This document shows positions 4,115 through 55,316 of a DNA stretch of 64,000 nt, piece by piece; the stretch's first letter is position 1, and every line of letters starts with the position of its first letter. Both the position numbers and the translations under genes were made by a program. Below the pieces are notes generated by a model. That model saw nothing but the letters and a program-made list of their open reading frames with translations. It had not been told where the DNA came from and made no database searches. The stretch comes from Argopecten irradians (lineage: Eukaryota > Mollusca > Bivalvia > Pectinida > Pectinidae): contig NC_091149.1 of assembly GCF_041381155.1 (NCBI RefSeq), forward strand, positions 10,680,609-10,744,608, given 5' to 3'.

Positions 4115-4123
4115 CTTGGTACT

Positions 4124-12164: not shown

Positions 12165-12173
12165 CTTGGTACT

Positions 12174-33600: not shown

Positions 33601-36600
33601 AGCGACGTTACAAATGTATGACGTCACAGAAGGGAGGGTCTACGTTAATTATCCAATGAAAATTCAGGGATTTTATTACCCAATGATAAGTCAAGGATTT
33701 TTATCTTATGAATATAGTTACAGTGATTTATTTATTATCCAATGACCATAAATAAAGTTCAGAATTAGAATTTTTGATGATTTTTATGAAAGCATGCTCA
33801 TTTATACATTCATTGTCATAATCTTACATTACTTGATTACAAATGAATCAGCTTTTTTGAAATATGATGATACATTTTGTATTAGCATATTGAGAAAGTT
33901 ATGAAGGCTTCAAGGACTGTTACAGGGATGTGACAATTCATGTACTGGTAGGTTCTATTGTATAATTGTGTTTGTACATTGTATCTATAAAGGCAGTCTG
34001 TTTGTACATTGTATCTATAAAGGCAGTCTATGGTAGCAGATGTATAGCCGATATAATTTTGCAAAAACTAAAAAAATATCAGCAAAACATTCTTAAAAGA
34101 CATTCCGTATTTGAAGGCGCTAAAAAGTTGAAGCAAATCAAGGGGCACTTAATAAAAACAAATTTGGACACAAATCAATTTGCAAAAGTTATAAGTAAGG
34201 AAACTAACACAGTTTTCATCTCTTCAGTCTGCATTAATAATTTGAAATAAGTGAAAATAAAGCCTAAAAAGTGGGGAGGGGCGCATTATGATATTGAGTC
34301 AAATATGGTATCCATTAATATATTTAGAATTATAAATTGTTTACAGTACACTAGACTGCTAACTTAAATTCAACAATAACTATTTAATAATTGATTGAAT
34401 AGATTCTTTTTGTATCAAGCTCAGATCATAAATCATAAAATCTCAACTATTCACACTTAAAGGACATGCATATAGCCATTTATCTTAAATTATACTCTGT
34501 GAAAGGGAGAGTACCTTAGACTTTTTTTGCTGCTACAGTATTCAATCCAATAATTAAGCACCCATGAGGTCAGCTGTTAAAATTCAAGGGGCGTTTCTTG
34601 GGACAAGATTAACACCTTTCACAAAATTATTGCAAAATGGACACTGCACAAAAAACTTGAGATTTGTGAACGAAACAAATTAGGAAGAGAAACATTATAT
34701 TCATATATACAGTAAAACATAAAGAACATGCTGACAACAAATATATGGTTATTAAGTAGATATTTCCATTCCCCATCAAGGTTCCTGTACGATGTGTGTT
34801 ACATTTCTGATTTCATTGGTCCCAATACTCACTGGTTAGTGATAACTCTTTTACTGTATTTGATAGAGACTTTAATAAAAGGTGAATTAATGCAAGAGGG
34901 TTGGGGAGGGGGGACATTTTCAAGAGGATTCAATTGCATGACACGCAGTTGAAATAATCTATTATTCTTGTAAATTCTAATAATTGCTCACCAAAGAAGC
35001 GAAAAATGAATCCCATGCAAAAGTGAGAATGAGTAGGTTTAAGGTAATAGGTGCGGGGGATTCTTTTGGGTACAATACGGTATAGAATCAATCTTAGTTT
35101 ACCCCAGTCTATAGAAAATCTATATAGATGGAGAGTGTGTATTGCCACCTTACAATTCTGTTATTGCATTTGAGAAGCCTTGTTGTTGTGGTGTTCTGTA
35201 CAAAAGGCTATCTGTTATCTTGTCAATAGGTAATGGATCGCTTTTAATACTATCGAGGAAAATAAATAGTGTCTAATAGCTTTGTACCAGGATGTTCATG
35301 ACTAAGGTAACATTGTAAGGTATATATAGCTCACGTTTTGTAGATTTTCCACACCTGTTTTCAATTTCACTGGTCCAAGAGAACCTGGATCTACTTTTAA
35401 TAGAAAATCCATTTCTGACATATTTTACTGCTGAATTTGGATTGATTTTAGATCAAGTTAATGAATATAATTATAAGACTCTTTCATATGTGGATATGAA
35501 TGATAGGGATATTGAGACTACCCAAGAGTCACATATTGTAGTATTATACCCGAGGCTTGCCAAGGGTTTTACAACATTTTGTGATCCCAAGGGTAGAAGA
35601 TCCCTATCCTTCCTATCCGTAATATGAAAGTATGGAGGGGTAAAAGTAAAAAAAAATCTGCTTGAATTAACTGTTTCATTGAAACTCAGAGTTGAGCAAG
35701 GCTGAGCAAAGTTCAACTGTTTCATTGCAACTCAATGTTTAGCATTAGTTCAACTTTTTTCATTGAACCTTATTGTTGACCGTCATTTGTTCAACTGTTT
35801 CATTGAAACACAATGTAGAGCATTTGTTCAACTACATGTTCATTGAAACAATGTTGAACATTTATTTGTTTCATTGAAACTCAATGTTGAACATTAGTTC
35901 AACTTTTTTATTTTAGCATTTGTTCAGCTTTTTTTGAATGTTGAGCTCCTTCAAACTTTTTAAAAATTAACCTTATTGTTGAGCAATTTGTTCATTGAGC
36001 ATTTGACCTTTTTGCATAACTTTTTTTGTTCAACTACTATGTTTGATTGCATGTTGAGCCATTAAACTTTTTTCATTGAACCTTAATGTTGAGCATTTGT
36101 TCAACTGTTTCATTGAAACTCTATGTTGAGCATTAAACTTTTTCATTGAAACTCAATGTTGAGCATTTGTTCAGCTGTTTCATTGAAACTCAATGTTGAG
36201 CATTAGTTCAACTTTTCATTGAATCCATATTTCAATGTTTGATTGCATTTGTTCATTTGTTCAAACTGTTTCATTGAAACATTCAATGTTGAGCATTGTT
36301 CAACTACATGTTTCATTTTCAGTGTTGAACATTTTCAGCTGTGTTCATTGAAACTCAATGTTGAACATTGTTCAACATTGAACCTTATTGTTGAGCATTT
36401 GTTCACTACTGTTTCAATGTTGAAACTGAACCTTAATGTTGAGCATTTGTTCAACTGTTTCATTTAAACTGAATGTTGAGCATTTGTTCAGCTGTTTCAT
36501 TGAAACTGAATGTTGAGCATTTGTTTGTTTCATTGAAACTCTATGTTGAGCATTTAAACTTTTTCATTGAAACTCAATGTTGAGCATTTGTTCAGCTGTT

Positions 36601-39600
36601 TCATTGAAACTGAATGTTAAGCATTTGTTCAACTGTTTCATTGAAACTCAATGTTGAGCATTTGTTCAACTGTTTTCATTGAAACTCAATGTTGAGCATT
36701 TGTTCAACTTTTTCATTGAACCTTAATGTTGAGCATTTGTTCAGCTGTTTCATTTAAACTGAATGTTGAGCATTTGTTCAACTGTTTCATTGAAACTCAA
36801 TGTTGAGCTTTTGTTCAACTTTTTTATTGAACCTTATTGTTGAGCATTTGTTCAGCTGTTTCATTGAAACTGAATGTTGAGCATTTGTTCAACTGTTTCA
36901 TTGAAACTCAATGTTGAGCTTTTGTTCAACTTTTTTTATTGAACCTTATTGTTGAGCATTTGTTCAACTGTTTCATTGAAACTCAATGTTGAGCATTTGT
37001 TCAACTGTTTCATTGAACCTTAATGTTGAGCATTTGTTCAACTACATGTTTCATTGAAACTCAATGTTGAGCATTAAACTTTTTCATTGAACCTTAATGT
37101 TGAGCATTTGTTCAGCTGTTTCATTGAAACTGAATGTTGAGCATTTGTTCAACTGTTTCATTGAAACTCAATGTTGAGCATTTGTTCAACTTTTTTATTG
37201 AACCTTATTGTTGAGCATTTGTTCAGCTGTTTCATTGAAACTCAATGTTGAGCATTTGTTCAACTTTTTTATTGAACCTTATTGTTGAGCATTTGTTCAA
37301 CTGTTTTCATTGAAACTCAATGTTGAGCATTTGTTCAATTTTTCATTTCATATGTTGAGCATTTGTTCAACTGTTTCATTGAAACTCAATGTTGAGCATT
37401 GAATTTTATTAACTCAATGTTGAGCACTAAACTTTTTCATTAAATCTTAATGTTGAGCATTTTTTAGCTGTTTCATTGAAACCAAATGTTGAGCATTTGT
37501 TCAACTGTTTCATTGAAACTCATTGTTGAGCATTTGTTTCATTGAAAGTCAATGTTGAGTGAATGTTAGTAGTTTTAACAATATACTTGTTTCCTGCACC
37601 ATTTACAGCTGGCATGATTTAGTCTCTAATTAAAGACATGTGTTTGTGTAACGTCAGTTGTAGTAAGCCTTGCAGCTGTCCTTAAGTCAAAGTACAGTAT
37701 CACATGTTTATGAGGAACACACTTAATGAAATAAAAATACAACAAGATTGTGGTCATAACATAGTACTTTTCATTTCTCCTCAAAGATATCTGTAATATG
37801 TGTATTATTATGTAACAAACTATGCTTATAACGAAGTAATTTTGTTCATCCCTAGAGGTTCATTATAACCATGTTTTAACTCTGTACATTTGTGTTCAAT
37901 GCAATGGTTACAAAATCAAATATGGTCACTATATTTGGTGTAGGTTCAGTTGAAATAGATGTATGTATTTCCTTATTCAAATGAATTATTTACGTCAATC
38001 AAATTAGTTAGCTGATATGGACAGAAATATTTACTTTAATAAGTGTCCTTAAGCTTAAATGAGTACACCATACTCGCCTGAGTAGTTTTTCAGATTCACT
38101 CCCATCTGAAAAGTATTTAATTTTTTCTGAGTCATACCACATATCATAGATTAATAGTAAAGATATGTTGACCAGGATATGAAAAAGACATTTCAGATGT
38201 TTAATTTAAAAACAAACTGGGGTTTGTCAGAATACAAGACTGTAAATTACTCTGAAATAAATGCATATATAGTAAGATTTTCCACAACTGGATGGAAAAT
38301 CTGTGCTGGAAAAAAATCAGCTGTTCGAAAGCTTTTTCAAATAGAAATTTTACCTGGTTAAGAAGTCATATATCTTTTCCCCTCTGATAGTTTTTCAGGG
38401 GAAAGAATTGGCGAGCAGATGTTTTCCCAGTGGAAAAAAAATTGGCTTGCTGATTTTTTGTTCGCGGGGAAGGAATTAGCTAACTGATTCTTTGCCCCTT
38501 CCTCTCAACGTTAAATTCTAAAGAGGGGGAATTATTGACTAGCTGATTCCCCCTCCCCATGCCCCTTATCAATTTATTTCTAGGGAGAGGGAACTATTGG
38601 CTAGCTTTCCCAACTTTTGATTTATTTTCAATGGGTGAAACTATTGGCTAGCTGATTCTTTCTCCCTACCCTATATATTTTTCCAAGGGGGCTACCCTGG
38701 TATGAAATTGAGTGGAACTGGAATGAACTAGGTTAACACCTTTGTGCTGTGTATTACATAAATACCTCTTTAGAGATAAATCCAATATTGATTTGATTGT
38801 TTCCCCATAGCACCATAATATAAAACCCTGAGCACCTCTATATGATGAAATATTATTTACCCATGCATTCCATTTGATTTTGCGACAGCCATACCTATAC
38901 TATAATAGTACTAGCTGTCAATAGACCAGAGTAAACAGTTTTCTCTACAGATACTCCAGATTAAAAGTCCTTCTCAATGAATACCTTTATACCGGAGATC
39001 TTCGCAAACCCCAATGTATAGCCCACTTCCATTAAAGTTCATTTACCCAGTGCAGAAAATTTGAAAGGATTTTTAAATGTGTGTGAAATGGCTCGACTCA
39101 ATTGGGAATTATGATCTGTTAATTGATCATGTTTGGCCTAAGGTGACTATAGCGATTGGTGTTCTGTTTACAATATACAACTGAATGTTTACAAGAAAGT
39201 TATGGTGTCATTTTGGTCTCGGTTATGTATTTCTGACAACAAAATGGCTGTAATTTATATATCTTGACCGGTAACCAGTTAAAACTAATGCCATCAGTGG
39301 AATTTGGCAACGGATTTAACATATTGAGGAAAAATTTAATCCAGTCATTTTGACAGTGGTGGAATGGCTCTGTTACTTATTGAGGAAAACTGTTAATAGT
39401 GCGACTATTTGACAGTGGTGAAATGGCACTGTTGCTTATTGAGGAAAAATCTTAATTGTGCGACTTTTGACAGTGGTGAAATGGCACTGTTGCTTATTGA
39501 GGAAAAATCTTAATTGTGCGACTTTTGACAGTGGTGAAATGGCACTGTTACTTATTGAGGAAAACTCTTAATAGTGCAACTATGTGACTGTGTTGGAAAT

Positions 39601-42600
39601 GGCAATATAACATATACTTGTTGAATTTTCTTCCCTGAATAAATTCTGCAGTATGTGTGATTATGAAAAAATCTTACATAATCTCATCTGTATCGATCAT
39701 CTGAGTGACAACAAGTGTTTAGGTTATGAAACCGTACATACCTCGTGTAGTATGTGAATTACTGTACCAACTCTGGATGTTATGAAGGATATAAAACTAG
39801 TTTTCATTTTTTTGGATTATAGTCAGAAGATAAGACTATTACATATTATTGTGAATTGTTATTGGATTTGGATTTAAAATGTACATTGTTTATATTTCTT
39901 TTCTTTGATCGATTGGTACTTAATGGAAATTGTGAATTGTAATTGATTTTGATCTAAAATGTACGTTGTGTACATTTCTTTTCTTTGATCAATTGGAACT
40001 TAAGGAAATTAATGCCAAAATTATGTATGTGAAGATATGTAAATTTGTGTGATCTGAATCATCATGCTGAAAGCATCCTATCCTATGTCTGTGTCGCCAT
40101 GGCAACATGGAGTTTTGGAGTCAACTGAGTGGTTGTTACCACATGTAAGCAGTAACAGCACACGATCATTAACTTTTCACACATTCAGTGGGTTTCGATC
40201 GGACAAAGTGGGAAAATATCCAAAACAGGTGGAAGTGGAGAGGCTACCCTTTGTTGTGAATTTAGATAAGCCTTCAAAACAAAAAGATTTATTGGAAAAT
40301 TCTGAAAGCTTTTCAGAAAGATGGACAAAATACCCAAGGAATAAAGTTGAGGTGACCAAGTCTTTAATGTCGAATCTAGAAAAAGACAAAAGAACTAAGG
40401 AATCGGATGAATCTTTGACAAGAACACAAAATGTGGAATCAAAGACAAATATATCTATGGAAGAAGACAATAGGTCAAGTAATGGTGCAGATGGAGAAAT
40501 TATTTGTCAGGATTCTGAATCTCAGTCGATTAAAAATGATGAAGATCCTAGAAAATTACTTGTTAATTACTTGTAAGTAGTATACATACTTTTACAAAGC
40601 TTGATGCAACACAGATTACTAGGACACTGATGTTACCATTCTTTAACGTGGTTAGTTAGCCATGGCTTGACCATAGTTCATTATCTATAGGTAATCTGGT
40701 CTAAATATAACCATGATTCCAACATTAACCATGGTTCAAAACCATGGTTAACCATGGATAGCCATGGTGCCTGGGCAATGGTTAACCACGGTCAACCATG
40801 GTTTACGATGTTTTAATTGACAGGGGTATGAGCTTGTGTGACCTGGCAGTGACCTGATGTAAAATTTTGTCTTAGACTTTTCTTCTTAAATAAGAAAATC
40901 CTTGGAAATCCAAGTTTCCTAATAGATTATTGGAAATAACGCCCAAAGGAAAGAGAGGAAATACTTTTATTAATTAGAATATATCCTTATTAAGGCTAGA
41001 GAATCTCGCCCACTGAAATATCTTAGAAATTCCAAGGGAGACTTTGTATAAATCAACATTCAGGAAAGTAGATATAATGATACTAATAGAAATAAAATTA
41101 ATAGTGAAAACTGATCATTTTTTTTTCCTTTTATTTTCAGATCAACCCCTTCTACCATGAGGGTTTCTTTTCAAAGTGGAGCAGGATCTCCAGCAAGAAT
41201 GCATCGTCCTAAGACAGCAGCATCCATTTTATCTGGGTCACCACGGTCAGAGTAAGTGATTCACTTTTACAACCTGTGCTAGAATATCAATTAAATTACC
41301 CATTTTACATTATAATAACATGTGTGTGATGCATTAATTAATATATATATCAATTATGGACCTTAGTTGAGGTCATATGGTGTCATATCGCCAGAGTAGA
41401 ATAGATAGTTATTATTTTAAATTCTACAAGGGCACGATATGGATCGAAACAAAAAACCTTGATTTTATATAAAGACAATCTCTAATGTGCATATTAATTA
41501 TAAGAAAAGCATTTGTCAAAGAACAGCACCCTGAAGAATGCAGCATTTGTTCAATGAATTTCACAAAGGAATATTGACTTGATCAGTGTTTCTTTAAATC
41601 ATGGAAACACAGTCAATTTGCTATATATTGAACATCATGTGACAAATTTAATACTGGATTGACTGGCTTGATTTCAGCATCAACCTGTCTATTGTGACCA
41701 TGCATGCTTCCATTAATTGGTCATTATAGACAGGTTTAACTGGACTAGGAAGTGTACCTATAAATATATTATCTATTACAAATGCAATGAGTTGAGGCAA
41801 AGAATGAAGATTTCATATAAAAAAAATATTGTGTTAAATTAACATCAAGCAAACCCCCTCCCCAAAAGAAAGTAAATAAAAAAAAATTAAAAAAAAAAAA
41901 AAAAAAAAAAATTGATGTAAAATTTTCACTATGCCATTATTCCCAGCTAAAAGTTTATTTAATTGAATGAAACAAAAATGATTTTTCAAACAATCATAAA
42001 ATAATAACAAAAGTGGCTCATTATTCCCTTGACAATAATGATCGAAAGCAGATTTTGTTCAATTTGGGTTTGTGATTTTGACACAAATTTATCACTGACT
42101 AGTAGTATGTAAAGTAAAAGTAAATTGATACCAGAGGATTATTTCCGTGTGTCATAGAAATAAAACAGAAACCTGCACAGTTCATATGGTCACGAAAACT
42201 ATAGAAATAGTAACATGTGTATGACATTGTATACTTAGGTAGAGTACTTAGGTAGGGCACTTAGGGTTTATCCTTCGGGTAAACGTATATATGTCATATA
42301 CCAATATTGTGACAGCTGGAAAGTCTGCATACTATATGTCACTTACTTACCTGTAGAACTGTGTACTCACTGCTTTATAGCATTAATCTATACAACTGTA
42401 ACTAATTATTATAATAGCATTATATACGTCTGATACTTGATTAGGAAAATTTATGTATATTTATAGCTTGTAATAACATATTTATAGTCTAACTACCATG
42501 TTCTTGAAAAAATGCTATTATGTTGTCAAGGAACAATCACAAAGCCAATATTCGGGATATATATAAAATACATATGAAATATTGGCCAATGATGAAATGG

Positions 42601-45600
42601 GTTGACGTCAATATTGTGGGTAATCAAATGATGTGCTGCCAATATTAGGAGGATGGGTCTTTGAAGAAATCATGTAACACAAATATTGGTGGATGACGAT
42701 TCTGATGAAATGGCATGGCGTCAATGTTGGGGTAGGGGTTGATGAAAGGATGGAATCACACCTCACTGCAATTAGAACACATCAGCCTCCATAAAAGTTA
42801 TGATAGGATATTAAAAATAGGATATTAAAGATCAAGAAATTTCTGAAAAAGCATCAAAATTTAACAATAAATGTTTTTGTTATTTTGGAACAATCACTTT
42901 GGCGGATGATTAGATAAGATAACGGCAGTATTGGCAGCAATGAAGCAAACATGAGGCTTATGTCGTGTTTGGCAGCTTTAGAATCTTACCTCAAGGGTTG
43001 GGATTCACCCTTTCTTGCTCTCAAGAGGATGCAGGGCTTTTTTCTTTTAATCGGGAAGTTGCCTTAACCCAGGGCTCGCGCTGTCAGTCACCATAGGCGC
43101 CATTGGCGAATTTGAAATGCATTTGGCGATTTAAAAACTGCATTGGCGAAAGAAGAATTTTTAATGAACCCCAAATTATCCTTCCACTATGTTAACCTTA
43201 TTTTGGGAAAGAAATTGGCTAATTGGGAAGGAAATTTCCAGGAGTAAACTGTATTTTTTTGGAAATTTGGCATAAATTTGAAATAATTTTTATTGGGAAT
43301 CAGGCCCAATTTTATCAGCCCCAGAAAGTCCCTAGAGGTGGATGAGTATTTTTCTCTTAACCTTTATGATGTTAAGATGTATTTACAGTAACTGTTGATG
43401 TTGTATACATACATGATAACATTGATATGATGTTCTTTTGTCTCATTATAGTATGTAAATTGCCGTTATCCTGTAGTAATATATAGATGCCCCATCTCTC
43501 CATGTGATAGGTGTGACCGGGTATTCCAGGTAGAACATGAGCCGACACGGAGACACAACCTTGAGACACACATACCCCACAAACGCTCTGCCAAAGCACC
43601 ACCATGGATGAAAAATGTAGAGGTAACTTTTTTTCAAATTTCCTTTTAAAATATAATTTGTTTCTGTAAAGTATCATTTTGGATTTATTTATTAATAATA
43701 AAGCGAAACTCAGTAGAACAAGAAACCAAATACTGTAAACAAACTATTATTCTTGACAACAAAATTTCGCGATTTATATTTCAAAAAGTTTGTGAAGGTT
43801 GACATTTGCATTAATGGAATATCCAATCATATCAATGATCTAGATATTAATTCACGGAATAGAAACTTTCGCAAATTTACTTGGATCGCAAAATTTGTGA
43901 AAATGAATCGCACACAAAAGAAAGTTCATTTACAGTAAGTGAAAGTGTACATTGTATATTGTACTTGGACTCTTTGCTTGTTTACAGCCCCCTATGGTGC
44001 CTTGTGTTGTTGCCCCCGGATATCTTCTCTCCCGAAGTAAAAGTAAATTTGCAGTCACAATCAAAGATGAATTTTTCGATCCAGTTGTGGAGGAAGCACA
44101 GTAAGTAAAAATGGGATGTACATAGTATTACATTTATTTTTTCACATTAGATCGCTAACCGAAATGGTCAGGATGACTATAGCCATCGTGTTCTGTCTGT
44201 CGTGGGCCGTGTGCCATCCTTAAACTTTTTGGGATAGAGCTGAAACTCACGTGACATTGTCATGACCAAGTGTTGTTATTCTTGGGTCAATCCGAAATCC
44301 TAGATGGCTGCTATGTTCAGCATCTTGAAAACACATTTTGAACTTCTTTTTTCAGTGTGATTTAAGTGAAACTAAACAATGCCTAAAATGATTATGACAT
44401 GGTCCCAAATAAGAGTTGTTATTTTTTTGGATCAACTTGAAACACATTTTGTACTTCTTCTGAAATTCTACCAGTGCAATTTAGCTGAAACTTGCCGGAA
44501 GAGATCCTTATTTTGTCCAACCCAAGTGTTGTTAATTTTTTAATGATCCAAAATCCAAGATGGCTGCCATCTTGAAAACTTATTTTAAACTAATTCTTAA
44601 AGTCCCTTTAGTGGGATTAAGCTATATACTGCATGAAATGATCCTGGCATGGTCCCAACCAAGTTTTGTTAATTTTTTAGGTCAATCTGAAATTCAAGAT
44701 GATTGCCATGATATGGCTGCAATTCAAAACACATTTTTAACTTGTCTAGTTCTACCTGTGTGATTTTTATTATTAGCTGAAACTTTCTTAAAATATGGTC
44801 ATGACGAACTGTAATTTTTTCGATCGATTCAAATTTGAGGAAGGCTACCACATGCACCATCTGCGTGTGAAAGTGCAACAAAACATGTAAAGTCCTTTTT
44901 TTTTAGCTTTAGTGCTGAAAAAGTTGTTTGAATGTAAAGAGAAGGTAGACTAAGAAGAGTTGTTGTTTTAGACCTCCAGAACCAAGATGGATGCCAAAGT
45001 CACCATCTTGAAAACATATTTTAATATTTTTTTCTATTTAATTGATGCCCTTAGGATGCATTATTGTCAGATGACTGTAAATGCCCATGGGTGTATAATG
45101 AGTGCAAATTTTCCCCGCACATATTCTTTTATTTTTCATTTAATCAAACTTTGGGAAATTCAAAAATTCCTGTTGAATATGGAGAAAACTGTTTTTCAGA
45201 TGTAGATTATATAAAATTTATGTAAATTTTTTTCTTCCATTTTCAGTAAAAAAACAAGCCAACAATGAAAGGTGAGTCAAGCTTAAAAAAACTAAATCCT
45301 CAAATTTAAAGAATTAATAAGGACGCTCAATCCAGATTACTGTTCTTGAGCAGCAAAACATATTTAATGTACTTGAACTCCATATTTGTCCCAATAAACT
45401 CGATAATAAACTCATTTCAGGGCCTCCAGTCAGCTTTCTTTGGAATCATTTTCCTGATTATTTTACGACTAAAAACTTATAATTTTGTGAAAGGTTTAGG
45501 TCCCAAGTGCTCACTTAATTCTTTAGTAAGTGTCAATCCTGGGTGCTTATTGAGTTGAATAGAGTATTTTTATTCCTACAAAGTTCAGGTAAATCACTGA

Positions 45601-48600
45601 TGTCTGAACAAAATAAACATTTAATGTTAATAATGGTAATTGGTAATCATGACCTTTGTATGACTTTAGGGATTCCCTGATTGGTCAACTACAGCAACAG
45701 ATATCAGATCTCACATTGTACCTGGAGGAAGAGAGACTTAACCATCGACAGAGCAAACAAAAGGTATATAAAATAGCAACAGAGCAAACAAAAGTAAATA
45801 AAATAACGACAAAGCAAACAAATGAAAATAAACCATTGACAGAGTGAACAAAAGTAAATAAATGAAACTAACGTCAGAACAAACAAAAGTAAATAAACCA
45901 TTGACAGAGTGAACAAAAGTAAGTAAACCAATGAAAATGCAAACAAATGGTAAATAAATCATTGACAGAGCAAACAAAAGGTAAATAAACTAATGACAGA
46001 GCAAACAAAAGGTAAATAAACCATTGACAGAGCAAACAAAAGGTAAATAAACTAACGATAGAGCAAACAAAAGGCAAAAATGACGCTGTAAAATTTCATT
46101 TTTGTAAACATATAAAGAGGGACTAGGGGAGACAACTTCATATTATAATTTTGATTATTACGCTTATATAGTGACTGTTAAATATGGTATGGAAATAGAA
46201 CACTTGAAGTTGATTTTCATTCTTATAACAACATTTGCAATGTTTTTGTGCTCTTGTATTTGGACACACAAATTTTCAATACATGTCACCTTAAAAAGAG
46301 TAGGGGAGACAACTCTAAAAACTAATATAAACTAGGCAAAGCCATCTTAAAGTTTTTTTATGATTGTAAGGAGAAACAATGGTAGGGATATATATAAACA
46401 GCTGACTTTGTATATTTATGTATATTTGCTAAGATAGAGAATGGTAGATCTGTTTTATAAAAAGATAAAGGCAGTTAGCCATATAGTTATTCTAAAGTTT
46501 TAACTTCACAATGCTCAGTTTGATGGATTTGTTGATGTTAAAATGAATTTGCCTTTTCCGATATATAATCAAAGGATCATTGCCGACTAACCAATGTCTC
46601 TACACAATTTCTTTTTAGGCAGAAGACTTTCTCAAAGACAAAATGGAAGAAATGAACAATCACCACAAAGATAATATCAGGTAAAACTTGGGACATACAC
46701 AATAAACTCAACTGATATACAGTATGGTTTCTACGTGCTTTCTTAAATTTGATTGAAGCAATTTTGTTGAAAGATGTGCTTCTGAGGTGTATGGAGAATT
46801 CCTTTAGATTAAATATGATTTAGCTACTGTGTATAACATTTAAAAGGTAAAAATGATATGATTGAAAGAACAAAAGAATCATTTAAAAAAAAGTTAAAAA
46901 TAAAAACCATCATATGGTATATCAATTTTAATAAAAATATGTAGTTATATATGCAGATTTTGAAACTATATGGAAAAACTCATGTACAATTTGGATATCA
47001 ATATTATCTGTTAGTACTTCCAAGTGAAGAAAATGAATTTGAACTTGATTTTGTCTTTGTTAATCAGAGAACTACAGGAAGACCAAAAGGAGGAGATAGA
47101 AAAACTAACAAACACACTGAGTGTGGAGCACAACCAGTATAGAATAACAACGGAAGCTCAGATCAGTAAGTTATCAGTATAGAATAACAACAGAAGCTCA
47201 GATCAGTAAGTTATCAGTATAGAATAACAACAGAAGCTCAGATCAGTAAGTTATCAGTATAGAATAACAACAGAAGCTCAGATCAGTAAGTTATCAGTAT
47301 AGAATAACAACAGAAGCTCAGATCAGTAAGTTATCAGTATAGAATAACAACAGAAACTCAGATCAGTAAGTTATCAGTATGGAATGACAACAGAAGCTCA
47401 GATCAGTAAGTTATCAGTTATATAGAATAACAACAGAAGCTCAGATCAGTAAGTTATCAGTATAGAATAACAACAGAAGCTCAGATCAGTAAGTTATCAG
47501 TATAGAATAACAACAGAAGTTCAGATCAGTAAGTTATCAGTATAGAATAACAACAGAAGCTCAGATCAGTAAGTTATCAGTATAGAATAACAACAGAAGC
47601 TCAGATCAGTAAGTTATCAGTATAGAATAAAAACAGAAGTTCAGATCAGCAAGTTATCAGTATGGAATAACAACAGAAGCTCAGATCAGCAAGTTATCAG
47701 TATAGAATAACAACAGAAGCTCAGATCAGTAAGTTATCAGTATAGAATAAAAACAGAAGTTCAGATACATAAGTTATCAGTATGGAATAACAACAGAAGC
47801 TCAGATCAGTAAGTTATCAGTATGGAATAACAACAGAAGCTCAATCAGTAAGTTATCAGTATAGAATAACATCAGAAGCTCAGATCAGTAAGTTATCAGT
47901 ATAGAATAAAAACAGAAGTTTCAGATCAGCAAGTTATCAGTATGGAATAACAACAGAAGCTCAGATCAGTAAGTTATCAGTATAGAATAACAACAGAAGC
48001 TCAGATCAGTAAGTTATCAGTATAGAATAAAAACAGAAGTTCAGATCAGTAAGTTATCAGTATAGAATAAAAACAACAGAAGCTCAGATCAATAAGTTAT
48101 TATCAGTATGGAATAACAACAGAAGCTCAGATCAGTAAGTTATCAGTATAGAATAACAACAGAAGCTCAGATCAGTAAGTTATCAGTATAGAATAACAAC
48201 AGAAGCTCAGATCAGTAAGTTATCAGTATGGAATAACAACAGAAGCTCAGATCAGTAAGTTATCAGTATAGAATAACAACAGATGCTCAGATCAGTAAGT
48301 TATCAGTATAGAATAACAACAGAAGCTCAGATCAGTAAGTTATCAGTATAGAATAACAACAGAAGCTCAGATCAGTAAGTTATCAGTATAGAATAACAAC
48401 AGAAGCTCAGATCAGTAAGTTATCAGTATAGAATAACAACAGAAGCTCAGATCAGTAAGTTATCAGTATAGAATAACAACAGAAGCTCAGATCAGTAAGT
48501 TATCAGTATAGAATAACAACAGAAGCTCAGATCAGTAAGTTATCAGTATAGAATAATAACAAGCTCAGAAGCTCAGATCAGTAAGTTATCAGTATAGAAT

Positions 48601-51600
48601 AAAAACAGAAGAAGCTCAGATCAGTAAGTTATCAGTATAGAATAACAACAGAAGCTCAGATCAGTAAGTTATCAGTATAGAATAACAACAGAAGCTCAGA
48701 TCAGTAAGTTATCAGTATAGAATAACAACAGAAGCTCAGATCAGTAAGTTATCAGTATAGAATAACAACAGAAGCTCAGATCAGTAAGTTATCATATAGA
48801 ATAACAACAGAAGCTCAGATCAGTAAGTTATCATATAGAATAACAACAGAAGCTCAGATCAGTAAGTTATCAGTATAGAATAACAACAGAAGCTCAGATC
48901 AATAAGTTATCAGTATAGAATAACAACAGAAGCTCAGATCAGTAAGTTATCAGTATAGAATAACAACAGAAGTTCGATCAGTAAGTTATCAGTATAGAAT
49001 AAAAACAGAAGTCAGATCAGTAAGTTATCAGTATGGAATAACTACAGAAGCTCAGATCAGTAAGTTATCATTAAAGAATAACAACAGAAGCTCAGATCAG
49101 TAAGTTATCAATATAAAAATAACAACAGAAGCTCAGATCAGTAAGTTATCAGTATAGAATAACAGCAGAAGTTCGATCAGTAAGTTATCAGTATAGAATA
49201 ACAACAGAAGCTCAGATCAGAAGTTATCAGTAAAGAATAAAAACAGAAGTCAGAAGATCAATAAGAAGTCATTAAAGAATATCAACAGAACTCAGATCAA
49301 AGTTATCAAAATAGAATAACAACAGAAGCTCAGATCAAGTAATTAATCATTAAAGAATAACAACAGAAGCTCAGATCAGTGAGTTATCAGTATAAGATAA
49401 CAACAGAAGACCATATCAGTATGCTATGATCAGTATAGAATAATAACAGAACTCAAATCAGTAAGTTATCAGTATAGAGTAATAGCAAAAGCTCAGATGG
49501 GTAAGTGATCATTAAAGAATAACAAAGGAAGCTCTGATCAGTTATTAGTATAGAATCAGTGCAATCATGAAGTAATTATAGCAATAAAAGTTGAAAGGTA
49601 TGTTATAATAGCATCAAGTAGTAAATGTTATTGAAGCTCATCATGTTAGTTTCAGATTTATGAATGCTTCTAATCATGTACATTCATTAAATAATTATAT
49701 ATAAATATTATATAAATATAATATTAACGAATATTTCAAAGGTAATCTAATTACATAAAGATACCAACTGGCATGTAATATAGTATTTGGGTATTTGATG
49801 TTTGATATTATGGTTACTTTCAGCCAAGATGAAAAAGGAAATAGAGTTTCTACAAGGGGCATTTGAATCCTACAAAAGTTCACTTCATGAAGAAATGAAT
49901 GAAAAATGGCATAAACGTGAAGAAGACTTGAATGCTGAACTGGAGGAACAAAAACTGAACTCCCTCCATGAATTCAGTAAGTCGATCAGTTAATGATCAA
50001 TGTTTTACGTTTTGATAATTACAAAATACATTTCTCATTGTTTAAAGGTATACTGTATAATCTGAAATATTTGTTGGTAATGTTTTACATGTTTGGAGCT
50101 TTCTTAGTATTCATTCTTTATCTTTATACTCCAAATTATTATCAGGTTCAATCCTTAATAATTAATTTTCTCTATGTTTCTGGCTTTCTGATTGGCCTAT
50201 TCATTTTTTTCATTCCACGATGAAAAAAAAGTCGAGAATGGCGCGGAAACCCAACGTTATCGTGATGTCACAATAGAAACATTGACGTTGCGTATCGATT
50301 TGGAAAAAAATAATCCCTTGGAAAAAATCAATGGAATCGTACGTGTAAACGTATTTTATTTTAAAAAGCAGCCTGGAAAATTAATAATAAGCATTGAAGT
50401 CCCTATTTTTTAATTTCATCGGGTTATGAAATAAATTTTGTTTGCAAACTTTTGTGAGAAACCGCTACGCGGATTCACATAATTTGCAAACAGAATTTCT
50501 TTCATACCCCGATGAAATTAAAAAATAGTGACTTCAATGCTTAAATTAATTTTGTAATTAATGGGACCAGACTTTGTTTAGGTACATAACCCTAACAATT
50601 AACATAACATTTAATAGAGGCCAAGATGATGCAAGAGAAGAATTCAGAGAGGATATCGTCAGGGAAGGAGCACGCTCGTCAGATGGACAATCTACGCAGG
50701 GAACACAAAAAGGAGTTAGATGTATGTATGATAAGGATTTTGTAGGTTGAATTTAAAGTAAAGGCTGGTTGATATTATACATGTTCATGTAATAAGAATA
50801 TATGTTAATTGATATATCTTATAATATAACCAATTTTTTGTTTGTATTTTATAACTTGAAATTTTCATCATAAATTTTCATGTTACTGTCGTGGGAAGAA
50901 AAATGAAAATATACGCTGACAAATTAAACATTTACGTTATTTTAAAGATTTAATAATTCGATCGTTAGTATTTTTTGGTCAATTATTGGTATTAACTTGT
51001 AATTATGAAATGTTCAAAGTTTAATAATTACATTTTAATAACTAGGTATTTTAATATAAGCCGACAGAGCATAAACGATACCCATCATTTAAACATTAAA
51101 TTATGTTTAATCTTGCGTATATGTGTCTGAGTAACACAAAAATACATATAAAATAATTCATTTTGATTTTGGTATATGTGCAATCAGTATTTCATTCCAT
51201 TTAAGGTATATATAGTGCCGTGGATTTTTAGGTCACCTGAGACGAGAAGTCTCAAGTGACCTATTCTAATCGCCTTTTAGTCCGTCGTCATCACACGTCA
51301 TCCTTCGTCCGTCGATGCTTCGCTTCGTCGTATGGCAATAAATAGTTTACATTTTTGACTTGTTCTCCAAAACTACTGAACTAAATGTGTTGCAATTTTG
51401 CAGAAACCTTTCATAGCCAAAGGTCAATAAAAAATTGTGAATTAATATGACCCCAGCCCCCCAGGGGCTTGAGGGGGGGGCCAAAAGGGGTCAGATAGGC
51501 TAAAACTTCAAAAATCTTGTTAATCTGAAATTTCGGAAATGGTAGAATCAAATACTCTTCATAGATTGAAAGGTCTTGAGAAACCTTTACAAAAATTGTG

Positions 51601-54600
51601 AATTACATGACCCTGGGGTCTCAATTTCAAAAGTCTCCTTCTGAATTCACAAATTTGATTCACAAATTTGATGGAACAAATACTCTTCATCAATTGAAAG
51701 GTCTTTTTAAGGCCCTTTACAAAAATTGTGAATTTCATGGCTCTGGCATCTCGGACTTTCCCCTGAGTAGGGGGTCAAATCTATTATAGTTTATATTCGA
51801 AAAACGCATTTATGAGCATTGTTTGCTTAATTTTCATAGGAAACAGTCAAACTTGGTTAGAATTATTACCCTGCGATAGCATTTTAGCGTCATATCCATA
51901 TTGGTTCTGGACAACCCCAAGGGGTAGATAGGCGGGGCCAAAAGGGGTCAAAATGACTAAAATTAGAAGAAAAAAACTCTTCTGAATTCACAGATTTGAT
52001 GGAACCAGATACTCTTCATAGATTGAAAAGTCAGTTATAAAATCATGCACTGACTGGTTTCAAGGCCCTGATGGGCCAATATATAGTGTTTATATGTCTT
52101 TGTTTCATTCTGTATCCGAACTCAAGTGACCGCTAAGGCCCATGAGCCTCTTGTTTTCGGGACGCAATTAATTATCTTTAATACTTTTATCTTGAAAAAA
52201 AAATCCAAGAATCCAACCTTTCAATGGGGTAAAGAAAGTAACTTTTGGAACTGAGACAAATACTAAATCGTATGCTCCTGTTATGATAGAGTAAAAATAC
52301 CATTCGTCAGTGGTGGAGCATCTTTATTTAATTTGTTATTATGATGTTGATGGTGTTCCATTGTATCTTTAACAGTCAGTGATCAGGAGGTTTTCAAATG
52401 TGGCTGCTGACTTGGAGCGACTCAAGAAAACCACAGCAGAACTAAAGGTGAGTACACATCCACCCGGTGAAGGCTATATTCCTTATAAATCTCACTCCTG
52501 GTGGCACAAATACATCAAAATACATGTGATTTGCTTTTTGTGGCATTCATTTCTATATTGTCTTTTATAAAATCGATTTGTGTTGGTGTATATCCTGACA
52601 ATTTTAAACTTCAAACCTAGAGTATCACAAAAGTTCTTTTGGATTAGCCCTGAACTGCCATACTAATAAATATTAGTGCACATTTGACAATACTAATTTA
52701 AAAATTAATTGCAATACAATGTATTAATTTAAAAGATAAATATTTCACTTCTAGTTTTGATATCAAAATGGCAGATTTTTGTTAATTCTTTGAAATGTTT
52801 CTAAGTAAATTAATCAAAATAAACCACGCTGATTCTATTTTTATGTTAAATTTTTGTAGGAGGTGAAGGCAGAAATGGAGCAAGTAAAAATCGCCTACGA
52901 TTCAACTTGTCAACAGATGGCCAACACTACACGAGAACTTGCCGATGCTGTAAGAGTTATCTCCCCTATCTTATTTTTAATTTGAACACAATATGTGCAT
53001 GAAGTAAAATTTCAGGTTGGAATATGAACATACACAGGTATATAGACCTATATAAGCTTTGTCCAAGGATTGTTCAAAAGAAACAAAAAATGCCTTTCGT
53101 TAAATCTATTATTATTTCAGATATAAACAAAACATAAATATAAAGTTATATTCAATGTGTTTGCACTGCGAAAACTTAACCTTAATTATGTACAATATAA
53201 TATCTGTCATAAATTAAAAGATATTTTTTCTTGTGGCAAGTGTGAAGGCAATTAAACAAATTTTATTTCATTATACCCCAGCAACAAAGTTTAGGCGGTA
53301 TACTGGATCGGGTTGTCCGTCTGTCTGTAGACACAACTTTTTCCAGCAAACTCCTCCTATACTACTTGACAGATTTTGATAAAATTTGGCACACAGAACC
53401 CTGACATAAAAAAGGAGTTGAGTAAACTATAGAGGGTTCTGCAATGTCCCCTACTAATGGAGTTATTACTAAATTTGTGCAGCGGGGGGTGGGGGTGTAT
53501 TTGCCATCCACTCTTGTGACAGTTCTAGTTGTAATAAGATATTTTTGAAAAACTAAAAGATTTATGAAATAAGATTAGAAACTAAATATGTTTTTTTCTT
53601 CCTTCCACAGAGAGTCAAACTGATGTCTTATGAAGAACAGTTCGAGGACAAAGTGTCTGGTGTGGATGAAAAGTACAAAAAGAAAATCAACGATTTGATG
53701 ACACAGAACATAGAACTGCGGTAAGTTATCAATCAAGTCTGGGATGAAGGTCACCTCATTATCATAACAGTGCACAATTAACAGCATAGAGTAGGACCCA
53801 GTTAAAATTCAAAGTTTGTTTGTTTGTTTGTTTGTTTGATGAATCAATGTCCTATCAACAGCCAGGGTCATGTAAGGACGGCCTCTCATGTAGGCAGTGT
53901 GTAGCGTGTATGGAGTGCAAGGTGCGTGTTTTGGGAGACTGTGGTATGTTTGTGTTGTGTCTTCTTAGATAATGGAACTGTTGCCATTTCATAGTGCTTT
54001 ATTACTGAAGTATGCTGCCGAAGACACCAAGCAACACATTCCACCCGGTCACACTATACTGACAACGGGCGAACCAGTTGTTACCGTTGTAATGACCTAT
54101 ATATACAAGTAAATTTAAAATTACTTGATAGAAATGAAAACTTTGCTTTGGAAGTAAATTGTCATATATTTGAACTTGTGCAGTCATCTATAAACCCCAG
54201 CTGAAGATTTTGAACTTAATATAATTATATATCTTGTTTTTATCTACATTTTATGTTAAATTATAACATTTTTTTCTATACAAATTGCCAAATATGCCAC
54301 CGGTCAAAAGATCATTATTTATATAGATTTATAAAATCAGCAAACTTAAAAGTAACATGTAGCTTCTACATATTGTCTAAAGATGTATTTTACTTTATGT
54401 TATGCATTTCAGACGATTGTATGTAGAAAAATGTGAAGAATTATACAATGAAAAAGTATTGGGTGAAACAACACGTGCAGCAAGGGTCTCGTCAGCAAAG
54501 GAAGTCATGCATGTATGTACAGAAACACTTTGTTTGGATTTGTGTTTTTTTTATCTCAATATTACTGCGTTATATTATCCAAATAAATTAAATTTTAAAG

Positions 54601-55316
54601 AATAACTTGCTAAAATGATATTCATAAACATAAATTGATATAGTAAAGAAATTGATATAAACTTGAAGCTTGTTTTCCAATTGCTAAATTTTCTGTTTTG
54701 TATGTACATATATCAATATACATTTTCATGTATAAGGTGAATAAATACTGTTAAACTAAATTGAAATTGATACATTTATTAGAAGATAAGCCTTGATGTA
54801 TATAAAAATATTTAGCACTGCTCAAGCTTTGAACTCTATGTGTTTGGTTTCTTTGCATCAAAATTACCTTCTGACTCATCTGTCTTTTCGTTTACAACAA
54901 TCTACGTTTTTTTTGAAAACTTTTCATTAATATATTTTCAGTCAATGATAAAGTCTAAACACAAAGCTAATGTTAGTCTTAGCCCTGCTGTTCAACCTCC
55001 CCACGAAACAAATCAGTCGAAACCAGAGCGACCAGGGAGTGCTCCAATTACAAGGGCGGAAACGGACAGTGCTCAGCAATTCGCTGGCAAATTTGAGGAT
55101 CTGTTGAGGCAGGAAGCCGAGGATGACGCTATCCCTAGTCCGTCTGTGATCCTTCAGGCCGATAGTGAGGAAGTGGAAAGGATGAGGAAGTCTCTGCTAG
55201 AGAACATCATGGAGGAGGTGAAGGAAACACAGGAAACAACGCAAGAAGAGGAGAACGAAAAAGAGGAAGAACAAAAGGACGGACAGGAGGAGTCTGTACC
55301 TGTTAAAATCTTTTAG
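24515..55316 (+). CDS. FLACC1: FLACC1 orthologue, flagellum-associated coiled-coil protein (ALS2CR12); spliced over 31 kb
   Basis: Exons: 24,515-24,639, 41,141-41,251, 43,511-43,622, 43,988-44,100, 45,670-45,763, 46,619-46,680, 47,068-47,165, 49,824-49,976, 50,618-50,721, 52,376-52,447, 52,860-52,949, 53,611-53,720, 54,413-54,512 and 54,942-55,316, all with GT/AG borders and matching phases, giving about 572 residues. Identification rests on three stretches that line up with human FLACC1 as I remember it. VAPGYLLSRSKSKFAVTIKD (exon 4) corresponds to VSPGYQLVRNREQISVTLGD. The coiled coil from QQQISDLTLYLEEE to FESYKSSLHEEMNEKWHK (exons 5-8) corresponds to EEQISELTAIIEQ through FRTYQDSIYDEMEEKWSK. 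DEKYKKKINDLMTQNIEL (exon 12) corresponds to EEKYKHTIQILTEENIHL. The mammalian protein lies along the sperm-flagellum principal piece, so a flagellar or ciliary structural role is inferred. The C-terminal exon adds an acidic tail longer than in human. Two alternative first exons are listed separately. Confidence 0.87.
25775..27225 (+). repeat. Minisatellite, about 30-base unit, first array
   Basis: Roughly 45-50 variable copies of TGTGCCCTCTTGTCTTGTGT plus TCAATCATAA, with frequent shortened units. It lies in the first FLACC1 intron. Open frames within it are products of the repeat. Confidence 0.85.
27625..28085 (+). repeat. Minisatellite, about 30-base unit, second array
   Basis: About 15 copies of the same unit as the array at 25,775, in the duplicated block. 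Confidence 0.8.
28650..28975 (+). repeat. Tandem repeat, about 91-base unit, 3.5 copies
   Basis: Each copy contains TCTGGGATCCTATACGACTG and TTCATGAAGTTTCTCAGA. The last two full copies are almost identical, which suggests recent duplication. Confidence 0.75.
28985..29215 (+). repeat. Tandem repeat, 42-base unit
   Basis: GGGTATGCTAGGCTAACAAT plus ACTTTGGTAT occurs three times; the first two copies are adjacent and the third is 80 bases further on. Confidence 0.7.
29216..30840. other. Intron 1 of FLACC1, nothing recognised
   Basis: AT-rich intronic sequence without a clear array, element or open frame. Confidence 0.4.
30850..30908 (+). CDS. FLACC1: FLACC1 candidate exon 1B (alternative N-terminus)
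   Basis: The ATG at 30,850 gives 19 codons plus two bases (MTASVVQTKRYQLYPFSES) up to a GTAGGT donor. It is more GC-rich than its surroundings and has an in-frame stop 15 bases upstream. The phase (2) is the same as in exons 1A and 1C and would join the 41,141 acceptor as AG+A. That gives about 550 residues in all. There is no homology support; it could be chance. Confidence 0.45.
31155..31290 (+). mobile_element. SINE-like retroposon with CAAA-rich tail
   Basis: CATGGGAGGCCGTCCTTACA and ATGACCCTGGCTGTTCATAG, then a tail of AAGCAAACC repeats. The same element lies inverted at 53,815-53,950 with a (GTTT)n side. This repeat is familiar from molluscan sequences. Confidence 0.6.
31957..32175 (+). 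repeat. Minisatellite, 27-base unit, 8 copies
   Basis: The unit CCAATGACAATTCAGTGATT plus TTATTAT repeats eight times. Isolated relatives (CCAATGAAAATTCAGGGATT) reappear at 33,650-33,745, about 1.5 kb away. The minus-strand repeat protein it encodes is an artefact of the 27-base period. Confidence 0.85.
32176..33640. other. Intron 1 of FLACC1, nothing recognised
   Basis: AT-rich. A second CRE palindrome TGACGTCA occurs near 33,620 without other promoter features. Confidence 0.35.
33966..34030 (+). repeat. Direct repeat, 30-base unit, 2 copies
   Basis: TTTGTACATTGTATCTATAA plus AGGCAGTCTG occurs twice in direct succession. The open frame that follows (to 34,250) is lysine-rich but has no splice sites or known domain. 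Confidence 0.6.
34260..35470. other. Intron 1 of FLACC1, nothing recognised
   Basis: No exon, array or element was identified. Confidence 0.35.
35479..35631. mobile_element. Palindromic foldback element, copy 1
   Basis: The left arm (CTTTCATATGTGGATATGAA, then ATAGGGATATT) is inverted at the right (GATCCCTATCCTTCCTATCC to ATATGAAAG). The centre contains TATACCCGAGGCTTGCCAAG. The same element, better preserved, lies at 59,905-60,047. Confidence 0.7.
35690..37560 (+). repeat. Large minisatellite, 37-base self-complementary unit
   Basis: About 50 copies of TTGAGCATTTGTTCAACTGT plus TTCATTGAAACTCAATG. Within a unit GTTTCATTGAAAC and CATTGAAACTCAATG are near-palindromes, so single strands of the array can fold into serial hairpins. 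Copies are ragged at the left and regular from about 36,430. Confidence 0.85.
37565..38380. other. Intron 1 of FLACC1, nothing recognised
   Basis: No feature beyond short AT-rich open frames. Confidence 0.35.
38385..38690 (+). repeat. Degenerate tandem repeat, about 65-base unit
   Basis: Four to five worn copies, each with a version of TATTGGCTAGCTGATTCTTT followed by a C-rich stretch and GGGGAA. Confidence 0.55.
39335..39600 (+). repeat. Tandem repeat, 58-base unit, about 4 copies
   Basis: TTGAGGAAAAATCTTAATTG and ACAGTGGTGAAATGGCACTG recur; the two middle copies are essentially identical. Confidence 0.75.
40064..40572 (+). CDS. FLACC1: FLACC1 candidate exon 1C (170-residue alternative N-terminus)
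   Basis: An open frame of 169 codons plus two bases in AT-rich DNA ends at a consensus GTAAGT donor (40,573) in phase 2. Its last two bases plus the first base of 41,141 complete a leucine codon. This form would have about 700 residues. The sequence is polar and rich in Ser, Lys, Glu and Asp, as in a disordered region. An in-frame stop lies just upstream of the ATG and no 3' splice site is seen, so it looks like a true first exon. It contains an RFX X-box at 40,093-40,106. If transcription starts downstream of that box, translation would begin at an inner methionine. Confidence 0.65.
40093..40106. promoter_or_regulatory. RFX X-box, GTCGCCATGGCAAC
   Basis: A perfect match to the X-box consensus GTNRCC-N2-RGYAAC, the binding site of RFX factors that drive ciliary and flagellar genes from yeast-like worms to vertebrates. 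It lies 30 bases into exon 1C of a gene whose product is flagellar, and about 1 kb before the first shared exon. It fits a promoter for the shortest transcript. A chance match is possible but the gene context makes it notable. Confidence 0.6.
40645..40815. repeat. Cluster of CCATGG palindromes
   Basis: AACCATGGTTAACCATGG and related strings occur about nine times within 170 bases, right after the exon 1C donor. The stretch is strongly self-complementary and could form a compact hairpin in DNA or in the intron. Confidence 0.6.
41141..41251 (+). CDS. FLACC1: FLACC1 exon 2 (first shared exon)
   Basis: Bounded by TTATTTTCAG and GTAAGT. Enters in phase 2 and leaves in phase 2. Encodes STPSTMRVSFQSGAGSPARM and a basic, serine-rich continuation ending SGSPRS. 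Confidence 0.85.
41255..43505. other. FLACC1 intron 2
   Basis: Holds the small hairpin element at 41,684-41,745, a long A-run (41,878-41,910), and worn phrases such as GTCAATATTGTGGGTAATCA repeated loosely at 42,600-42,740. An interspersed repeat fragment with CATTGGCGAA motifs lies near 43,070-43,160. No exon was found. Confidence 0.4.
41684..41745. mobile_element. Hairpin element with AACCTGTCTAT arms
   Basis: AACCTGTCTATTGTGACCA at the left is inverted as TGGTCATTATAGACAGGTT at the right, with a 22-base loop. Its arm is the same motif as the core of the 22,908-23,490 minisatellite. Confidence 0.6.
43511..43622 (+). CDS. FLACC1: FLACC1 exon 3
   Basis: Uses the acceptor TGTGATAG at 43,510; the stronger-looking TATTCCAG 18 bases later would give an immediate stop. 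Encodes CDRVFQVEHEPTRRHNLETH and on to APPWMKNVE. Donor GTAACT, phase 0. Confidence 0.8.
43988..44100 (+). CDS. FLACC1: FLACC1 exon 4
   Basis: Acceptor TTGTTTACAG, donor GTAAGT, phase 0 in and 2 out. Encodes PPMVPCVVAPGYLLSRSKSK and FAVTIKDEFFDPVVEEA. The APGY, VTI-DE-FD pattern is the best match to the human protein outside the coiled coil. Confidence 0.88.
44155..45050 (+). repeat. Interspersed repeat with internal units of about 120-130 bases
   Basis: Begins with GACTATAGCCATCGTGTTCT and continues with four diverged units, each with CAAGTGTTGTTATT, a bad copy of CCAAGATGGCTGCCATCTTG and AAAACACATTTT. I associate this repeat with bivalve genomes. It fills most of FLACC1 intron 4. Confidence 0.6.
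45247..45271 (+). other. Possible FLACC1 microexon (25 bases)
   Basis: A strong acceptor (TTCCATTTTCAG) and donor (GTGAGT) bracket 25 bases holding a run of seven A. As given, inclusion shifts the frame and stops at once, while skipping it joins exons 4 and 5 in frame as CA+G. With one A fewer it would read HKKQANNER in frame and bring the spacing to the coiled coil close to that in human FLACC1. It may be a homopolymer error, a frameshift allele or an unused site. Confidence 0.4.
45670..45763 (+). CDS. FLACC1: FLACC1 exon 5, start of coiled coil
   Basis: Acceptor GACTTTAG, donor GTATAT, phase 2 in and 0 out. Encodes DSLIGQLQQQISDLTLYLEE and ERLNHRQSKQK. Its last 24 bases seeded the minisatellite that follows. 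Confidence 0.87.
45740..46076 (+). repeat. Minisatellite grown from the exon 5 / intron 5 junction
   Basis: About ten copies of a 31-base unit, CCATTGACAGAGCAAACAAA plus AGGTAAATAAA. The first copy is the exon end itself (CATCGACAGAGCAAACAAAAG, then GTATAT). The last four copies keep an intact AAAAG|GTAAAT donor, so the intron starts with a series of exon-like 5' splice sites. Confidence 0.85.
46619..46680 (+). CDS. FLACC1: FLACC1 exon 6
   Basis: Acceptor TTCTTTTTAG, donor GTAAAA, phase 0 in and 2 out. Encodes AEDFLKDKMEEMNNHHKDNI of the coiled coil. Confidence 0.85.
47068..47165 (+). CDS. FLACC1: FLACC1 exon 7
   Basis: Acceptor GTTAATCAG, donor GTAAGT, phase 2 in and 1 out. Encodes ELQEDQKEEIEKLTNTLSVE and HNQYRITTEAQI. 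Its last 31 bases are the seed of the 2.4-kb array that follows. Confidence 0.87.
47135..49555 (+). repeat. Minisatellite grown from the exon 7 / intron 7 junction, 40-base unit, about 60 copies
   Basis: The unit CAGTATAGAATAACAACAGA plus AGCTCAGATCAGTAAGTTAT contains 31 exon bases and the first nine intron bases, including the full donor GTAAGT. The exon end differs from the repeat consensus by one base (ACGGAAG for ACAGAAG). Most of the 60 copies keep the donor. Units are nearly uniform in the middle and worn near 49,200-49,555. Since 40 is not a multiple of three, and the intronic frame hits TAG in the second copy, only the first donor keeps the reading frame. Confidence 0.95.
49824..49976 (+). 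CDS. FLACC1: FLACC1 exon 8
   Basis: Acceptor GTTACTTTCAG, donor GTAAGT, phase 1 in and 1 out. Encodes KMKKEIEFLQGAFESYKSSL and HEEMNEKWHKREEDL, the most diagnostic FLACC1 segment. Confidence 0.9.
50386..50545. mobile_element. Near-perfect palindromic foldback element
   Basis: AAGCATTGAAGTCCCTATTT to TTTGCAAAC is inverted as TTTGCAAACAGAATTTCTTT to CAATGCTTA. The pairing continues inward through TGTGA and CCGC/GCGG to a loop of a few bases, so the whole 155 bases can form one hairpin. It lies in FLACC1 intron 8. Confidence 0.75.
50618..50721 (+). CDS. FLACC1: FLACC1 exon 9
   Basis: Acceptor ATTTAATAG, donor GTATGT, phase 1 in and 0 out. Encodes AKMMQEKNSERISSGKEHAR and QMDNLRREHKKELD. A second AG two bases later is also open but in the wrong frame. 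Confidence 0.83.
51231..52157 (+). repeat. Interspersed repeat, about 920 bases
   Basis: Starts with a 13-base hairpin (GGTCACCTGAGAC / GTCTCAAGTGACC), contains three diverged units with CAAAAGGGGTCA and ACTCTTCATAGATTGAAAG, and ends ACCGCTAAGGCCCATGAGCC, TCTTG. I recognise this as a repeat type common in bivalves. It has no coding capacity and sits in FLACC1 intron 9. Confidence 0.65.
52272..52331 (+). mobile_element. MITE end fragment, same family as 15,058-15,415
   Basis: TGCTCCTGTTATGATAGAG and CGTCAGTGGTGGAGCATCTT, 45 bases before the exon 10 splice site. Confidence 0.5.
52376..52447 (+). CDS. FLACC1: FLACC1 exon 10
   Basis: Acceptor ATCTTTAACAG, donor GTGAGT, phase 0 both ends. Encodes SVIRRFSNVAADLERLKKTT and AELK. 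Confidence 0.84.
52860..52949 (+). CDS. FLACC1: FLACC1 exon 11
   Basis: Acceptor AATTTTTGTAG, donor GTAAGA, phase 0 both ends. Encodes EVKAEMEQVKIAYDSTCQQM and ANTTRELADA. Confidence 0.84.
53278..53530 (+). repeat. Interspersed repeat fragment
   Basis: TTATACCCCAGCAACAAAGT, then a GTCCGTCTGTCTG run, ending CTTGTGACAGTTCTAGTTG. I associate this repeat type with molluscs. Non-coding. Confidence 0.5.
53611..53720 (+). CDS. FLACC1: FLACC1 exon 12
   Basis: Acceptor CTTCCTTCCACAG, donor GTAAGT, phase 0 in and 2 out. Encodes RVKLMSYEEQFEDKVSGVDE and KYKKKINDLMTQNIEL. Confidence 0.87.
53815..53950 (-). mobile_element. SINE-like retroposon, inverted copy of 31,155-31,290
   Basis: A (GTTT)n tract leads into CCTATCAACAGCCAGGGTCA and GTAAGGACGGCCTCTCATG. 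On the minus strand this ends in a CAAA tail, as expected for a retroposon in that direction. Confidence 0.6.
54413..54512 (+). CDS. FLACC1: FLACC1 exon 13
   Basis: Acceptor ATGCATTTCAG, donor GTATGT, phase 2 in and 0 out. Encodes RLYVEKCEELYNEKVLGETT and RAARVSSAKEVMH. Confidence 0.86.
54942..55316 (+). CDS. FLACC1: FLACC1 exon 14, acidic C-terminus and stop
   Basis: Acceptor AATATATTTTCAG. Encodes 124 residues from SMIKSKHKANVSLSPAVQPP to SVPVKIF. It includes a proline/serine-rich linker, a helical stretch (FAGKFEDLLRQEAEDD) and a Glu-rich tail of about 40 residues. It has no clear counterpart in the shorter human C-terminus. Confidence 0.85.
   Translation, partial: SMIKSKHKANVSLSPAVQPPHETNQSKPERPGSAPITRAETDSAQQFAGKFEDLLRQEAEDDAIPSPSVILQADSEEVERMRKSLLENIMEEVKETQETTQEEENEKEEEQKDGQEESVPVKIF

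Follow-up and report, generated by a model that had tools for sequence, protein, structure and literature searches.

Two unrelated minisatellites span the 5′ splice junctions of neighbouring predicted exons in Argopecten irradians

A 40-bp minisatellite (array 1) at the predicted 5′ splice site, or donor, of exon 7 of a gene in Argopecten irradians is real and, together with a second minisatellite (array 2) at the donor of the preceding exon, is a large, doubled case of a known kind of junction-spanning minisatellite. Both lie in a stretch of 64,000 nt (the window; contig NC_091149.1 of assembly GCF_041381155.1, positions 10,680,609–10,744,608 of the forward strand), whose own numbering is used here; exon numbers follow an earlier reading of the same letters, hereafter the original prediction. 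With a probability of roughly 0.72, we interpret the arrays as two independent minisatellites of the type called mirages in amphioxus, in which the first donors are spliced and the arrays are passengers. The features concerned are as follows, with a slash marking predicted exon–intron boundaries in sequences.

47135–49556, plus strand: array 1, a 40-bp minisatellite of 60 units and a stub, running from inside exon 7 into intron 7 (Tandem Repeats Finder, TRF, and wraparound alignment).
45740–46078, plus strand: array 2, a 31-bp minisatellite of about 11 copies, beginning inside exon 6 (TRF and wraparound alignment).
43988–55316, plus strand: ten phase-consistent predicted exons, 432 codons to a TAG stop (frame and phase).
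45670–45763, plus strand: predicted exon 6, donor AAG/GTATAT, with its last 24 nt in unit 1 of array 2 (frame and phase).
47078–47165, plus strand: predicted exon 7, 88 nt, 5′ end placed by phase; unit 1 of array 1 corresponds to its last 31 nt.
47166–47174, plus strand: first donor of intron 7, GTAAGTTAT, the sole frame-keeping site among 50 donor-like sites in array 1.
49824–49976, plus strand: predicted exon 8, with acceptor TTACTTTCAG; its phase fits the first donor of exon 7.

TRF placed array 1 at 47135–49542, with a period of 40, 59.8 copies and a score of 3964, the highest of the 49 rows in the window, and wraparound alignment resolved it as 47135–49556, with 60 full units and an 11-base stub; both methods set the left edge at 47135, inside the predicted exon. 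Given that exon, the unit is CAGTATAGAATAACAACAGAAGCTCAGATCA/GTAAGTTAT, that is, 31 exon bases (47135–47165) followed by 9 intron bases (47166–47174), and the array occupies 2391 of the 2658 bases of predicted intron 7. The alignment thus agrees with the original prediction, which had claimed that the donor, together with its exon surroundings, was amplified about 60-fold and that the unit was made of the last 31 exon bases plus the first nine intron bases. Consensus-identical units number 22 of 60, the other 38 differing; the core ATCAGTAAGT (ATCA/GTAAGT) is kept in 46 units, while GC replaces GT in three and the core is otherwise altered in 11. The full 13-mer CAGATCA/GTAAGT occurs in 42 exact copies in the window, all of them within array 1, and the original claim that nearly every copy carries it in full was too strong.

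Array 2, which was overlooked in the original prediction, amplifies the donor of the exon preceding exon 7. TRF gave it a period of 31 and 10.9 copies, and its first unit consists of 24 exon bases (AACCATCGACAGAGCAAACAAAAG) and seven intron bases (GTATATA). The consensus units of the two arrays are without visible similarity, and each of the two neighbouring exons therefore has its own amplified donor. After overlapping TRF rows had been merged by hand, 13 arrays in the window reached 100 bp, and only arrays 1 and 2 among them lie inside the gene span (40061–55316). Donor motifs were likewise concentrated there, with 48 in array 1, eight in array 2, three in the array at 19371 and one in the array at 62616; the remaining nine had none, and on the minus strand none of the 13 arrays contained any. 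When the 11 putative donors of the gene were examined for downstream copies of themselves, those of exons 6 and 7 outscored every one of 100 resamplings from a first-order Markov model, that at 54513 was borderline (its score was reached by 1 of 100) and the other eight were negative by the same comparison. Under uniform placement and assuming 11 donors, the chance that each of the two arrays would begin no more than 40 nt from an exon end is 0.0008, a value computed post hoc.

The consequences of using a later donor are nearly uniform in array 1. Excluding the three GC variants, the array contains 50 sites matching GT[AG]A[GT], of which only the first keeps the frame open; the other 49 yield an in-frame stop, as the original prediction had anticipated when it pointed to a TAG in the second unit, and read-through beyond the first exon 7 donor gives SKLSV and then TAG. 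Pairing energies with the 5′ end of U1 were predicted at −5.6 kcal/mol for 46 of the 50 sites, including the first, at −5.7, −3.6 and −3.0 for three, and at −11.1 for one, which is listed here.

49501–49509, plus strand: TGG/GTAAGTGAT in the degenerate unit 59, the strongest predicted U1 pairing of the 50 array 1 sites (−11.1 versus −5.6 kcal/mol).

The donors had been described as equal, which is borne out for the 46 sites sharing one predicted energy but not for the stronger site at 49501 or for the three that are slightly different or weaker. From the predicted energies in arrays 1 and 2, it follows that the first donor is not singled out by strength alone. A local RNA fold does not appear to mark it either: within the segment that was folded, 47078–47334, the structure was no better than in shuffled sequences (z 0.67; 152 of 200 were at least as stable). 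Splicing of microexons inside array 1 was considered and rejected, the array having no acceptor-like site (YAG preceded by at least 8 pyrimidines in 12 positions); by this rule, the only acceptor-like sites in intron 7 are those at 49655 and 49823.

Variation along array 1 is not evenly distributed. Up to unit 52, most units depart from the consensus at 0–4 places; among the final eight, most have a larger number of differences, with a maximum of 10. Unit 1, the exonic one, has a single difference, ACA to ACG, which is synonymous in the predicted frame and is shared by just one other unit, the degenerate unit 60 at the end of the array. One variant type was followed by a second type in four of seven cases (permutation p 0.004, for a pair chosen post hoc), as if blocks of a few units had been copied together. 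Counting changed cells of the alignment, the six donor columns had 17 of 360 and the other 34 columns 74 of 2040; the decoy donors seem neither protected nor purged by selection and, since the donor columns changed no less than the rest, the pattern fits a neutral minisatellite.

We propose that 5′ splice junction segments (31 + 9 and 24 + 7 bases) were duplicated and then multiplied into the intron; the anatomy is seen directly, while the process would have been one of replication slippage or unequal exchange. The exon copy of the unit would remain the coding end of the exon and splicing would proceed through the first, exon-proximal donor, in which case the array would be removed together with the intron, and would be tolerated for that reason. 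The later donors would then be decoys, acceptable as long as they are rarely chosen and mostly leading to a premature stop when they are, and the array would otherwise be a neutral passenger, probably variable in length. By analogy, the amphioxus cases in the literature speak for a preference for the first donor.

Several points weigh against this interpretation. The choice of the first donor is one that we infer, and in array 2 the first donor (−5.7 kcal/mol) is outdone by four of the ten later sites (−6.8 to −7.2), being better than the other six. In minigenes with two equally strong donors, the intron-proximal one is often preferred, which here would lead to aberrant mRNA, and limits on exon size would bar only the distant copies and not donors 2–5. 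The gradient of divergence in array 2 is also opposite to that in array 1, with the cleanest units (8–10) at its 3′ side and more divergent units at its 5′ side. Finally, we assume a direction from exon to array, and the end of the exon could alternatively derive from the array.

The same observations bear on other explanations. The array could act as a splicing rheostat, with some transcripts using later donors, meeting the TAG in unit 2 and undergoing nonsense-mediated decay, such that copy number would tune the amount of functional mRNA. A premature stop from 49 of 50 donor-like sites and a donor core kept in 46 of 60 units are what such a device would need, but the donor columns show no better conservation than the other columns and the amphioxus mirages reportedly leave splicing undisturbed; a regulatory role via unproductive splicing is possible but unsupported, and we regard the rheostat as improbable. 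Slightly less credit still is due to an assembly artefact, by which the copy number or part of array 1 would come from expansion or collapse of a short repeat. Runs of identical units, such as units 30–35, are certainly hard to assemble; however, 38 of the 60 units depart from the consensus, some with private indels, and neither the ordered variant pair (4 of 7, permutation 0.004, post hoc) with the decaying 3′ end nor the presence of array 2, unrelated in sequence, at the adjacent exon is readily explained in this way.

It is very unlikely, and the least probable of these alternatives, that the polarity is reversed or that an intron was born here, with the end of the exon or the whole intron made from a tandem duplication (intron gain of the Rogers type). 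Published models do explain how introns can arise anew through tandem duplication of a segment at a splice junction, one such case being reported from potato, and human internal tandem repeats at exon–intron boundaries have been linked to novel introns (PMC2812944); what these share with our arrays is the presence of tandem copies at an exon–intron boundary that are able to carry splice signals. Nevertheless, array 1 stops at 49556, short of exon 8, whose start is at 49824, so that intron 7 extends past the repeat; its acceptor is unlike the unit, and nothing seen here suggests a new intron. Beyond the passenger interpretation, we entertain only tentatively, and consider rather doubtful, a broader proposal prompted by the pair of unrelated arrays at adjacent donors: that minisatellites in this genome are seeded repeatedly at 5′ splice junctions, through a DNA process tied to donors or relaxed selection behind them, with the donor clusters setting the amount of productive mRNA.

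The underlying gene model joins ten predicted exons across introns that all have GT donors and AG acceptors; it takes the first donors of exons 6 and 7 and ends with the stop at 55316. Its exon edges were picked by eye with the frame in mind, and for that reason the model is self-consistent rather than an independent test. Exon 6 could alternatively end at the second donor, at 45794, with a gain of ten in-frame codons. The original prediction started exon 7 at 47068, which is out of phase with predicted exon 6; a start at 47078 (CTACAG/GAA) is in phase with it. Open stretches near 40064–40572 and 41141–41251, outside the joined model, resemble additional 5′ exons, and at 40550–40580 the end of a putative first coding exon has an 11-bp near-duplicate (AATTACTTGTTAATTACTTGTAAGT) across the donor, where the search for downstream copies was negative.

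Judged by eye, the predicted protein looks like a coiled coil. With the corrected protein as query, no Pfam family exceeded its curated cut-off, the best match being Nuf2_DHR10-like (3.1e-05, with 24.4 bits where the cut-off is 28.4), and an earlier, partly wrong query had KIF9 as its best match (0.004). Among solved structures, the earlier query matched none at E values up to 1, and the corrected one gave two chance-level rows up to E 10, the best at 0.17. FLACC1, the name used in the original prediction, is plausible but was confirmed by neither the Pfam nor the solved-structure searches.

Additional searches with the repeat found no exact match of a 30-mer of the array 1 unit in viral contigs, where a peptide pattern had seven matching stretches, none confirmed as a relative; Rfam had no match at the gathering threshold in the window. 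Elsewhere in the window, the minus strand contains two similar open frames at 2411–4141 and 10464–12191 (577 and 576 codons, stop to stop), both matching nearly the whole model of the AMP-binding enzyme (Pfam PF00501, E 1.2e-49 and 4e-49), which are apparently intronless paralogs. Open pieces at 7084–8498 resemble a decayed element similar to long interspersed nuclear elements; of two pieces searched, 7878–8243 has a match to reverse transcriptase that falls short of the Pfam cut-off (PF00078, 1.1e-05), while the other had no match. A 10-bp repeat of TTCAGGTAAA at 15847–15878 contains donor-like motifs, with no exon seen there. Arrays of a 28–30 bp unit at 25768–27216 and 27630–28077 have similar flanks on both sides, as if a block had been duplicated together with its minisatellite. 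Upstream of the gene, at 36071–37538, lies a large minisatellite with a period of 37 and about 40 copies (also detected with a period of 260), which has no donor motifs.

The kind of repeat is known: amphioxus mirages, a minisatellite in a human interferon-induced gene and human boundary tandem repeats have been described. Mirages are minisatellite-like tandem duplications of exon–intron boundaries in Adh3 and in the globin genes BflGb6 and BflGb9 (PMC3087553). The Adh3 units measure 10–72 bp; BflGb6 has units of 150–160 bp at an acceptor, with six and three copies in two haplotypes, and BflGb9 a single 157 bp duplicate at the 3′ boundary of an exon. The same source reports length instability of mirages, with somatic instability at Adh3, and results suggesting that regular splicing is undisturbed. 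Troponin C is also listed among the mirage genes, and lancelet PGBD5 has tandem repeats at splice sites, one of 60 bp and one of 108 bp, that have been likened to mirages (PMC3902484); as PGBD5 has two, the occurrence of two repeats in one gene has a precedent.

Compared with the mirages as there described, arrays 1 and 2 have in common a unit across the exon–intron boundary (predicted, in our case), several genes being affected in amphioxus, and array 1 shares with them a splice signal in many, not all, units (46 of 60 here). In contrast, the BflGb6 repeat lies at an acceptor and has few units, whereas arrays 1 and 2 are both at donors and have 60 and 11 units. The G+C content of the window is 0.336, below the amphioxus value of about 0.41. 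The original prediction knew of no described case of this size: the kind itself was already known from the amphioxus mirages and from a human gene, but in the open-access literature searched we found no described example with as many copies. The human case, a minisatellite of the interferon-induced gene 6-16 (IFI6/G1P3), was reportedly described by Turri et al. in 1995; it has a 12-bp unit in about 26 copies, with later donors that add in-frame steps of four residues. That arrangement differs from the present one, where units are of 40 and 31 bp and nearly all later donors lead to a stop.

Array 1 amounts to a natural experiment: a single intron holds 46 near-identical 5′ splice sites in nearly the same exon context, of which only the first keeps the predicted frame, so that one can ask directly how the spliceosome chooses among equal donors. 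The most interesting new point is the unrelated array 2, which raises the question of whether donors recurrently seed minisatellites in this genome. Two unrelated neighbouring cases also suggest that minisatellites of this junction-spanning kind may originate more frequently than one would gather from the few genes described so far and, if commoner, they would bear on models of intron gain.
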